The notes beneath the pieces are model-generated. The model had not been told where the DNA came from. It saw only the letters and a program-made list of their open reading frames with translations, and ran no database searches. From Clostridiaceae bacterium (GTDB taxonomy: Bacteria; Bacillota; Clostridia; Peptostreptococcales; Tindalliaceae): DNA of 64,000 bases. Where the stretch lies: positions 1 to 64,000 of the forward strand of contig JAABSW010000011.1 in the NCBI GenBank assembly GCA_011390155.1, given 5' to 3'. The position numbers were made by a program, and so were the translations under genes. Below are positions 23,060 through 63,991 of this stretch, piece after piece. Numbering within the stretch: the stretch's first letter is position 1; every line of letters starts with the position of its first letter.

Positions 23060-23566
23060 TTGAAGGACATCATGATACTTGACGGCTATAACGTGACGAA
23101 TGCGCTGCCTGAATTGAAAGAACTGGCCCGCGCAGATTTTGGGGCAGCCAGGGACGGGCTCATCGAAATCATGTCAGAATACCGTACTTTTCGGGGGATT
23201 GACATCCTGATAGTCTTTGATGCACATATGTCTGCCAAGGGAAGAGAGCACCAGGAAAAAGTCAAAGGTGTCGAAGTGGTGTTTACAAAAGAAAAAATGA
23301 CTGCCGACAGCTATATCGAAAAAAAAATCAGTGTGCTGGCTGAAAAAAGAAAAGTGATTGTCGTTACAAATGACTGGACGGAGCAACTGATGGTGTTGGG
23401 AAGCGGAGCTGTGCGTGTCAGCGTGAGAGAGCTCCAACTGGATTTAACAGAAGCTCGAAGTAGAATATCGGAAACTACCTACAAACTTAACCGGGAAAAA
23501 GACTTTTTATCCAACCGCATTGATAAAGAAACACTTAAAAAGCTGGAAGAATTTCGCAGGAAATAA
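23060..23566 (+). CDS. YacP-type NYN domain ribonuclease (Rae1-like)
   Basis: A 168-residue NYN/PIN-like nuclease; the B. subtilis relative Rae1 cleaves mRNA on the ribosome. Acidic active-site positions appear in ILDGYNV, IVFDAH and VTND. TTG 23060 is chosen because CGGAGG lies seven bases upstream and the protein then begins LKDIMILDGYN; a GTG at 23039 overlapping the rlmB stop would precede that SD. The 3' end abuts a structured repeat. Confidence 0.88.
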   Translation: MKDIMILDGYNVTNALPELKELARADFGAARDGLIEIMSEYRTFRGIDILIVFDAHMSAKGREHQEKVKGVEVVFTKEKMTADSYIEKKISVLAEKRKVIVVTNDWTEQLMVLGSGAVRVSVRELQLDLTEARSRISETTYKLNREKDFLSNRIDKETLKKLEEFRRK

Positions 23567-23691
23567 CAGAATTCGCAGCTCTGGTGGAGTTGTAACTTCA
23601 TTAAAAGTTAGAATGCGTTATCCATAAGCAGATGACCCAAATATACCATTTGGTGCCAGATGCTTAGTTTGTTCACCCGGGGATAAATTGA
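23563..23691 (+). repeat. Structured repeat element, copy 1
   Basis: About 130 bases starting at the yacP stop codon, homologous to the reverse complement of 63798-63991. The core 23579-23677 is close to 85-90 percent identical by eye. Visible RNA-like helices: TGGTGGAGTT pairing with AACTTCATTA, TAAGCA (23625-23630) with TGCTTA (23661-23666), and hairpin CCAAAT (23637-23642) with ATTTGG (23648-23653). Compared with copy 2 it lacks an internal stretch of about 65 bases containing the long hairpin. It could be a non-coding RNA, a small mobile element, or the end of a TnpB-type transposon; it cannot be assigned from sequence alone. Confidence 0.75.
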
Positions 23692-28081: not shown

Positions 28082-28111
28082 AGCAGCACCAAAACAACAC
28101 AACATTGAATA

Positions 28112-28220
28112 TTCTGCCGTAGACCGTAGGGACAGTTAACTGTTTAAAGAACCTACCGAGGCTTTTTCGAAATAGAGAAAAAGGCCTCGCGCTGTCTGAC
28201 AGCGATGAGGTTTTGTTTCG
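28112..28220 (+). promoter_or_regulatory. Ribosomal protein L10 leader with attenuator
   Basis: The rplA-rplJ gap holds the L10-binding leader: GTAGG (28126-28130) pairs with CCTAC (28152-28156), followed by a long arm CGAGGC-CTTTTTC / GAAAAAG-GCCTCG. The last CCTC of that arm is shared with a second hairpin, CCTCGCGCTGT / ACAGCGATGAGG (28185-28210), followed by TTTTGTTT. The two cannot form fully together, which suggests L10-(L12)4-controlled attenuation of rplJL. Confidence 0.85.
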
Positions 28221-28258
28221 TTAAAGCAGAACCAGTAAAAGAAGGAGGTGCACAGTGA

Positions 28259-29225: not shown

Positions 29226-29266
29226 AAAAGCACCGTGACAGAAAAATCTGTCTCGGTGCTTTTTTA
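29226..29266 (+). terminator. Intrinsic terminator after rplL
   Basis: AAGCACCG-T-GACAGA pairs with TCTGTC-T-CGGTGCTT around AAAA, followed by TTTTTT. Confidence 0.93.
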
Positions 29267-29268
29267 TC

Positions 29269-40536: not shown

Positions 40537-40580
40537 TTTAATACAGGACAACAATAAACATTATTTAGGGAGGAAAGAAA

Positions 40581-41774
40581 ATGGGAAAAGCAAAATTTGA
40601 AAGAACGAAACCGCACGTAAACATAGGAACAATAGGTCACGTAGACCATGGTAAAACCACATTAACAGCCGCCATCACCATCGTGTTGAACAAGCGCTTT
40701 GGCACAGGAGCAGCCGTGGCCTTTGACCAGATTGACAAAGCACCGGAAGAAAGAGAAAGAGGTATCACCATCTCAACAGCCCACGTTGAGTACGAAACAC
40801 CCAACCGCCACTACGCCCATGTAGACTGCCCCGGCCATGCCGACTATGTCAAGAACATGATCACCGGTGCAGCGCAAATGGACGGAGCAATCCTGGTGGT
40901 ATCAGCAGCAGACGGCCCAATGCCCCAAACAAGAGAGCACATCCTGTTATCAAGACAAGTAGGCGTACCATACATCGTTGTGTTCATGAACAAATGCGAC
41001 ATGGTGGACGACGAAGAACTGCTTGAACTGGTAGAAATGGAAATTCGGGAATTGCTGGACATTTACGAATTCCCAGGCGACGACACACCCATCTTCAAAG
41101 GCAGTGCACTGAAAGCACTGGAAGACCAAGAAGGCGAATGGGCAGACCATATCGTTAACATGTTTGAAGTCATCGACGAATACATCCCAGAACCAGAAAG
41201 AGAAGTAGACAAACCATTCCTGATGCCAGTGGAAGACGTGTTCTCCATCACCGGCCGAGGCACAGTCGCCACCGGCAGAGTAGAGCGAGGCACCGTTAAA
41301 GTACAGGAAGAAGTACAGTTAGTAGGCCTTTCAGAAGAGCCTCGGAAACTCATCGTCACCGGCGTGGAAATGTTCCGCAAGCTCCTTGATTTCGCCCAGG
41401 CAGGCGACAACATTGGTCTCTTACTTCGAGGCATTCAGCGAAACGAAATCGAACGAGGACAAGTTATTGCCAAACCCGGCAGTATCCATCCACACACCAA
41501 GTTTAAAGCAGAAGTATACGTACTGAAAAAAGAAGAAGGCGGCCGACACACACCCTTCTTTGATGGCTACCGACCCCAGTTCTACTTCAGAACAACGGAC
41601 GTAACCGGCAGCATCAAATTACCAGACGGCGTAGAAATGGTTATGCCTGGCGATAACATTACCATGGACATTGAACTGATCAGCCCCATCGCGGTAGAGG
41701 AAGGCCTTCGCTTTGCCATTCGTGAAGGTGGTCGAACAGTAGGCGCCGGCGTTGTTGCCAGCATCACTGAGTAA
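40581..41774 (+). CDS. tuf: Elongation factor Tu, copy 2
   Basis: Identical in protein to copy 1 except for Gly279 (GGT at 41415-41417), the conserved residue. P-loop [13 protein letters not shown] and NKCD are intact; 397 residues. It is at the standard str-operon position after fusA. DNA identity to copy 1 is 1189 of 1194 bases, falling off abruptly just outside the gene except for the shared SD and similar 3' hairpin, which points to recent gene conversion. Confidence 0.98.
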
Positions 41775-41793
41775 TTATAGCGATTAACACCAG

Positions 41794-41820
41794 AGGACCA
41801 GGCTGATGCCTGGTCCTTTA
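41794..41820 (+). terminator. Terminator-like hairpin after tuf copy 2
   Basis: Perfect 10-bp stem AGGACCAGGC with GCCTGGTCCT around TGAT, followed by TTAAAAAA; the T-run is weak. Close homologue of the hairpin after copy 1. Confidence 0.65.
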
Positions 41821-42100
41821 AAAAAAGAATGAAATCGAAAAAAAATTATAAAATAATGAAAATAAATCAAGGATTTTTCTTGCTTTTAATCCATTTCTAT
41901 TATAAAATAACTAAGTGTCCCAATTTATGCGATGAAGTGGAAGGTGGCCCTTTCTGAAGGGGGAATTTCCATGGAGTATGTCGGATCAATGAATCGGGCG
42001 ACTTGGCAGTTAAGATGTTTCGGATTTAAAAAAATGCAACACACCCGGGACAGTGTACATGCCATGTCGCACTCAATGTGCGAATGGAGGAGGTTAGCAA
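41821..42100 (+). other. S10-operon leader region
   Basis: Most of the 326-base gap between tuf and rpsJ. It starts with AT-rich DNA, then the promoter near 41880-41908, then a leader of about 185 nt. Small hairpins seen: CCCTT-TCTG-AAGGG (about 41949-41962), and TCGCAC (42067-42072) with GTGCGA (42078-42083) just before the SD. No known leader family was recognised. Confidence 0.5.
41880..41908 (+). promoter_or_regulatory. Candidate promoter of the S10-spc-alpha superoperon
   Basis: TTGCTT (41880-41885), 17-base spacer, TAAAAT (41903-41908), in an AT-rich region just upstream of the first S10-operon gene. Confidence 0.6.
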
Positions 42101-62952: not shown

Positions 62953-63798
62953 GTGAATATTATCCAGGCTATTATTTTGGGTATAGTGCAAGGTTTAACA
63001 GAATTTTTACCGGTAAGCAGTTCAGGTCATTTGGCTGTGACGCAAATGCTGCTGAAAGTACCTGAAGACAGAATTTTTTTTCTAACAGTCATGTTACATA
63101 TAGGAACACTGGTCTCTGTCATTGTGGTTTATTGGAACGATCTTGTGAACATCGTCATTGAGTTCTTTAGAATGTGTGTGGACATTATCCATAAAAAAGG
63201 TGCAGGGTTGGAAAATGAATACAGACGATTAGGTGTCTTCATCATCGTGGGAACCATACCGACGGGAATCATGGGTCTTTTGCTAAAGGATATTTTTTCC
63301 AGTTTTTATACGTCTCGTCTTATCATAGGCATCTCTCTCTTAATCACCGGATCTTTGTTGTGGTTTGCTGAACGTTCGCAGCAAGAATCTGCAACACCCC
63401 TAAAATCCATTGGTAAGATGACTTGGAAGAATGCTTTTTTAGTGGGAATTTTTCAGGGATTCGCTATCACACCGGGCATTTCCAGGTCGGGTTCAACCAT
63501 CGCCGGCGCACTGTTTCAGGGGATCAACAAAGAAACGGCAACAAGGTTTTCGTTTTTGTTATCATTTCCTGCCATCACGGCAGCAACACTTCTGGAAGCC
63601 AAGGACATTGCAGAATTCGGCATGGGTGATGTGAGCATACCGATCTTGTTAGCAGGCATTATTGCCTCTTTTCTAGCAGGTATTTTTGCTATCAGAACCC
63701 TGATCAATTTGATTAAAAAAGAAAAGTTGTATTTCTTTTCATTTTATACATGGATCGCTGGCACTATCGTGATTATCACATCACTTATGAATCGTTGA
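62953..63798 (+). CDS. uppP: Undecaprenyl-diphosphatase
   Basis: Membrane enzyme recycling undecaprenyl pyrophosphate for cell-wall synthesis; overexpression gives bacitracin resistance in relatives. 281 residues with the active-site motifs GIVQGLTEFLPVSSSGHL (about 11-28) and GFAITPGISRSGSTI, and about eight helices. GTG start with GGGAGG upstream. Its stop codon abuts a structured repeat. Confidence 0.96.
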   Translation: MNIIQAIILGIVQGLTEFLPVSSSGHLAVTQMLLKVPEDRIFFLTVMLHIGTLVSVIVVYWNDLVNIVIEFFRMCVDIIHKKGAGLENEYRRLGVFIIVGTIPTGIMGLLLKDIFSSFYTSRLIIGISLLITGSLLWFAERSQQESATPLKSIGKMTWKNAFLVGIFQGFAITPGISRSGSTIAGALFQGINKETATRFSFLLSFPAITAATLLEAKDIAEFGMGDVSIPILLAGIIASFLAGIFAIRTLINLIKKEKLYFFSFYTWIAGTIVIITSLMNR

Positions 63799-63991
63799 TC
63801 CTGTTTATCCGATGACTACCACCGCTAAGACTCCCTCTTCTGTAAGAGGGAGATAAGCGGTGCTACGTCCCTAGGTGAACAAACTAAGTATCTGCCACCA
63901 AATGGGACATTTGGGCCATCTACTTATGGATAACGCATTCTAACCTTCTGATGGAGTTAAAACTCCACCAGAAGCTAAGAATCCTGTTTAT
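63798..63991 (-). repeat. Structured repeat element, copy 2
   Basis: Longer homologue, in opposite orientation, of the element at 23563-23691. It is bounded by the direct repeat ATCCTGTTTAT at 63798-63808 and 63981-63991. Helices on the minus strand: TAAGTA (63926-63921) with TACTTA (63890-63885), CCAAAT/ATTTGG, a perfect CTTCTG-bounded hairpin around 63945-63974, and a long CACCGCT...AGCGGTG hairpin enclosing CTCCCTCTT/AAGAGGGAG (63820-63862). The window ends nine bases later, so a gene or further repeat beyond cannot be excluded. Confidence 0.75.

Follow-up and report, generated by a model that had tools for sequence, protein, structure and literature searches.

At two places in the window (the whole stretch of 64,000 nucleotides analyzed here) lie copies of one dispersed repeat without a gene, of which there are about 45 matches in this 2.72-Mb genome. 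Copy 1 is found at the end of yacP, where the stop codon TAA (23564-23566) comes from the left ATAA(A) of the repeat, and copy 2 sits 3' of a gene resembling uppP/bacA, which is named from sequence reading alone. The features, with H1, H2, and H3 as the hairpin modules, are:

23563-23687, plus strand: copy 1, made of H1, the guide-like word and H2, with H3 deleted
23571-23614, plus strand: H1 of copy 1, in which two pairs are kept as G.U and four are broken
23617-23623, plus strand: guide-like GTTATCC of copy 1, complementary to AAC of the left end as well as to GGATAA of the right end
23624-23677, plus strand: optional module H2 of copy 1, containing the compensated pair C23629-G23662
23683-23687, plus strand: right-end ATAAA of copy 1
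29263-29267, minus strand: empty target ATAAA; in the sister species a full copy stands at exactly this site (L086:16224-16411)
63804-63991, minus strand: copy 2, full-length, 99% identical to the family consensus
63987-63991, minus strand: left ATAAA of copy 2
63937-63982, minus strand: H1 of copy 2
63928-63934, minus strand: guide-like GTTATCC of copy 2
63874-63927, minus strand: module H2 of copy 2
63814-63869, minus strand: H3 of copy 2
63804-63808, minus strand: right-end ATAAA of copy 2

The initial annotation had noticed that the two stretches match each other apart from one large internal gap, and this is the case: the net shortening is about 62 bases, and the gap is real and corresponds to hairpin H3, lost in copy 1. 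The extents given there, 23563-23691 and 63798-63991, contain the match, but the true limits are 23563-23687 (plus strand) and 63804-63991 (minus strand). Copy 1 matches the family consensus in the window with an E-value of 7e-36, far above chance. At the yacP site of the sister species (L086) H3 is present but partly deleted, and in Anoxynatronum buryatiense (L087) the site holds no element, i.e., it is empty; the yacP stop codon is an example of how gene ends get rewritten by copies of the repeat. Directly outside the right-end ATAAA of copy 2 is CAGGATC, which resembles the beginning of a second copy. Elsewhere in the window, two Rfam families score above gathering, the ribosomal protein L10 leader (28099-28225) and the S10-Clostridia leader (41924-42001), and a segment of about 1.25 kb (40567-41821), with a further match to L086:11414-12680 at 91%, occurs twice in the window, the duplicates probably being the two tuf genes, judged by position.

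The family consensus is 188 bp long and a short form of 133 bp is frequent, giving a 133-188-bp mosaic. Searching the 2.72-Mb genome with copy 1 as the query gave 26 matching places; the 188-base consensus gave 52 match rows, which include single copies matched in two pieces and self-complementary hits. The best full copies reach 99% identity to the consensus. The order of parts is ATAAA, CAGG, H1, GTTATCC, optional H2, AGGGAC, H3, and GTCATCGGATAAA. ATAAA bounds the repeat at left and right, the left pentamer being ATAAA and the right end reading GGATAAA with random sequence outside both; the ends analyzed were chosen as complete, which inflates their conservation. In the 133-base form H2 is missing, always with the same exact junction. 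A 38-base form arose by deletion between the TCTTAGC words of H1 and H3. H2 also exists as a stand-alone small repeat, in tandem (G011 and G068), between tRNA genes (G089), and within the H3 loop (G047), at loci L068, L069, L075, and L170-L177. The repeat is thus composite in the literal sense, a mosaic that combines two or more repeat families. As the initial annotation had held, no protein frame explains the repeat, the consensus having stops in each of the six frames.

The copies are dispersed and near-identical, and sites filled in one species are empty in the other. At 29263-29267 the window has a single ATAAA (minus strand), and at the matching site the sister species carries a copy of 98% identity to the consensus. 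Insertion takes place at ATAAA. Four clear further sites are filled here and empty in the sister, as judged by matching the joined flanks of each copy to contiguous empty DNA in the sister; a fifth candidate (L053) gave a close-up alignment on one side of the junction only. Some of the empty sites show a variant of ATAAA. One old copy common to both species is strongly decayed in the sister. A 1.3-kb insertion near one sister site was considered as a transposase and proved to be an aminotransferase-like gene. The complete genome G007 has at least 41 copies that are 96-99% identical, two of which lie head to tail with exactly 5 bp in common. The 41 copies listed for G007 are distributed as 28 on the minus and 13 on the plus strand, alike in both chromosome halves.

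A covariance model (R1) placed the family in 29 of the 148 genomes of the order and, across the class, in 22 of 291 genomes (19 of 181 genera). These genome counts are lower bounds because strict filters and sampled species were used, and the R1 E-values are rough owing to a shortened calibration. Several contigs of the draft genome G006 break within the 133-base form, and copy numbers in draft genomes are therefore underestimated. No close copy was seen in plasmid and phage collections, and BLAST of the subfamily consensuses against plasmids was empty.

The initial annotation had taken a compensated pair as the sign of structural selection. The two versions of the helix, TAAGCA/TGCTTA and TAAGTA/TACTTA, were read correctly and the double change at C23629-G23662 is real, but it is weak evidence: the two-sided change at this pair (70/103) occurs in one of 44 copies, copy 1 itself, and three others show a plain C.A mismatch. 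For the first helix it was claimed that every pair is kept through wobbles; AACTTCATTA does keep pairs as G.U, but four H1 pairs are broken in copy 1. Among the copies, two-sided changes number 26 against 20 expected when one subfamily marker is left out, i.e., near chance. Alignments of several lineages, as the initial annotation had proposed, tell a different story. In 19 sequences, 37 two-sided changes were observed versus 10.9 in shuffles, and in 42 rows aligned with the covariance model (33 forward matches plus weaker reverse-strand matches) there were 237 versus 69.8, with a two-sided change at 36 of the 42 pairs and none of the 500 shuffles as high. Please note that the 42-row alignment was fitted to the structure and so favors it; slid controls gave 0.03-0.09 versus 0.36. 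The stem of H3 differs by genus (CACCGC/GCGGTG, GAATTC/GAATTC, and CAACTC/GAGTTG). Covariation also links the base that follows the left pentamer to the one preceding TTATCC: they are C-G, G-C, or T-A in 37 of 41 rows, some of them from the same genome. TTATCC itself pairs with the right-end GGATAA. The genuine covariation of the repeat is between genera. The hairpins are modular and compensated between lineages, and individual copies decay in a neutral-looking manner.

Selection on RNA structure was the reading of the initial annotation, and the part about structure stands. That the repeat is a structured RNA, cis-regulatory or small, conserved at each site would fit the strong covariation, the stability of the fold predicted for copy 2 (z -8.8), and the frequent presence of bcr1-type repeats in transcripts (PMC3446304), but we consider it improbable from what follows. 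Of 104 copies, 100 are intergenic by a simple ORF caller, and relative to co-directional genes 29 are sense and 34 antisense. This even orientation, together with the turnover of sites, is not the fixed orientation and position to a gene that a cis-regulatory RNA would have; copies are not positionally conserved, and they decay. In a structured RNA, G.U is tolerated whereas A.C is not. G.U is not favored over A.C in the repeat, with 120:102 G.U to A.C mismatches among within-genome copies of the Tindallia-like group and 51:49 between lineages. An L10 leader control from the same class gave 21:9, from few pairs chosen by RNAalifold, and the repeat under the same treatment gave 40:32 or 40:25, not clearly different from the control; because this control is small and the difference unclear, the G.U contrast is suggestive only. 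No Rfam covariance model matches the repeat, neither raiA, IS605-orfB, and HEARO, which the initial annotation had named as candidates, nor any other family above threshold over a copy, the best being Srn266 with 31.8 bits versus a gathering value of 63. With G.U equal to A.C, even orientation, and decay of an old copy, it looks as if the structure is selected for mobility, and probably at the DNA level. We conclude that the moving lineage is what selection acts on, most likely through its DNA hairpins, rather than every resident copy. This is a caution for RNA-motif discovery, where very strong cross-genus covariation without a G.U excess probably means DNA hairpins of a mobile element; R-scape-type tests alone would label such a repeat an RNA.

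We hold, with good confidence, that the repeat is a mobile DNA element, non-autonomous and, broadly taken, of bcr1 type: a small hairpin repeat between genes, with ATAAA/TTTAT at its two ends, spread through Clostridia. How such copies arose may be seen differently. Modules in common with exact deletion points (the short form and the 38-bp form) point to slippage or recombination, and one could take the copies as ancient repeats that recombination or gene conversion, not transposition, has dispersed; the clean empty sites in sister species refute this reading unless every one of them is a precise deletion, and new insertions and the burst-like near-identity in G007 also speak against it, leaving it very improbable. 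A classic MITE, i.e., a deletion derivative of an insertion sequence that a DDE transposase mobilizes through terminal inverted repeats, with a 5-bp target duplication ATAAA, would agree in size and dispersal and with ATAAA flanking the copies on both sides and occurring singly in the empty site. However, the ends, ATAAACAGG versus TTTATCCGA, are not inverted repeats, and the two pentamers do not co-vary; most copies in G066 steadily have ATCAA on the left and ATAAA on the right, which speaks against a simple duplication of the target. We regard a classic MITE as unlikely.

Mobilization by a TnpA-REP protein, as for elements of REP/RAYT type, was also considered, as Y1 proteins of RAYT length occur in many relatives bearing the repeat and in G073 a copy or a right end is no farther than about 350 bp from each of two RAYT genes. 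Yet recent copies are present here in a genome without RAYT, and at 31 + 23 Y1 loci the repeat brackets 0 genes, no RAYT-type gene of the relatives being bracketed by it; this possibility is largely refuted and can be given little weight. The G073 copy near a RAYT gene, tried as the flanking repeat of that gene, does not bracket it. A different short motif, GAACCGTCCC, lies close to the RAYT-type genes of G073 and G068 (L308, L313, and L207) and may be the repeat cognate to them. The only Y1 transposase of this genome is within an IS605-like element whose ends are unrelated to the repeat, and no Y1 transposase was found in the sister assembly (75% complete). Looking for the ends of the repeat around Y1 and RAYT genes gave no match, and no autonomous relative came to light.

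For the non-autonomous bcr1-type element, our leading guess, a tentative one, is single-strand (HUH/Y1-like) insertion, which is favored by the pairing of the guide-like word and by the absence of inverted repeats. An enzyme acting in trans would recognize the folded ends. The internal XTTATCC can pair with AAX at the left junction and with GGATAA at the right end, and from this pairing the same internal word could hold either end. A single strand could in this way be cleaved after ATAAA and joined up again on the 3' side of a new ATAAA. The hairpins would persist because only foldable copies move, with resident copies left to decay. That this is a class-wide family of enzyme-less mobile hairpins, moved by a system in which one internal guide pairs in turn with the left junction and with the right end, and with DNA-level covariation that mimics a structured RNA, we put forward with considerable doubt. 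With the covariance model, the empty sites, and the target word, the mobilizing enzyme can be sought.

Among known systems, the non-autonomous derivatives of IS200/IS605 have subterminal hairpins, no terminal inverted repeats, a short left target word, and internal guide pairing, the guide sequences of IS200/IS605 elements pairing with their cleavage sites. The present repeat likewise has subterminal hairpins, no inverted repeats, a short target word at the left end, and guide-like pairing with the junction sequences; it differs in that no Y1 element sharing its ends was found. BOX elements and BIME/REP mosaics are, like the present repeat, small modular intergenic hairpin repeats. They differ in sequence, target word, and hosts, BOX being repeats of S. 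pneumoniae (PMC3049150), and no RAYT is bracketed by the present repeat. A putative bcr1 fragment used as a BLAST query gave no match. By description, the closest known element would be bcr1 of Bacillus cereus, one of the group A repeats (bcr1-bcr3), which has been called specific to the B. cereus group (PMC6542083) and some copies of which are transcribed (PMC3446304). Both are non-coding, about 150 bp, intergenic, present in tens of copies, MITE-like, folded, and mobile (PMC6542083, PMC3446304), and the terminal TTTAT of bcr1 is the reverse complement of the ATAAA at both ends of the Clostridia repeat, which is itself intergenic, dispersed, and polymorphic in insertion between relatives. In contrast to bcr1, reportedly confined to the B. 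cereus group, the present repeat is a 133-188-bp mosaic with an optional H2 and lives in Clostridia, and bcr1-like small mobile repeats would thereby extend to a broad, patchy range of this class.
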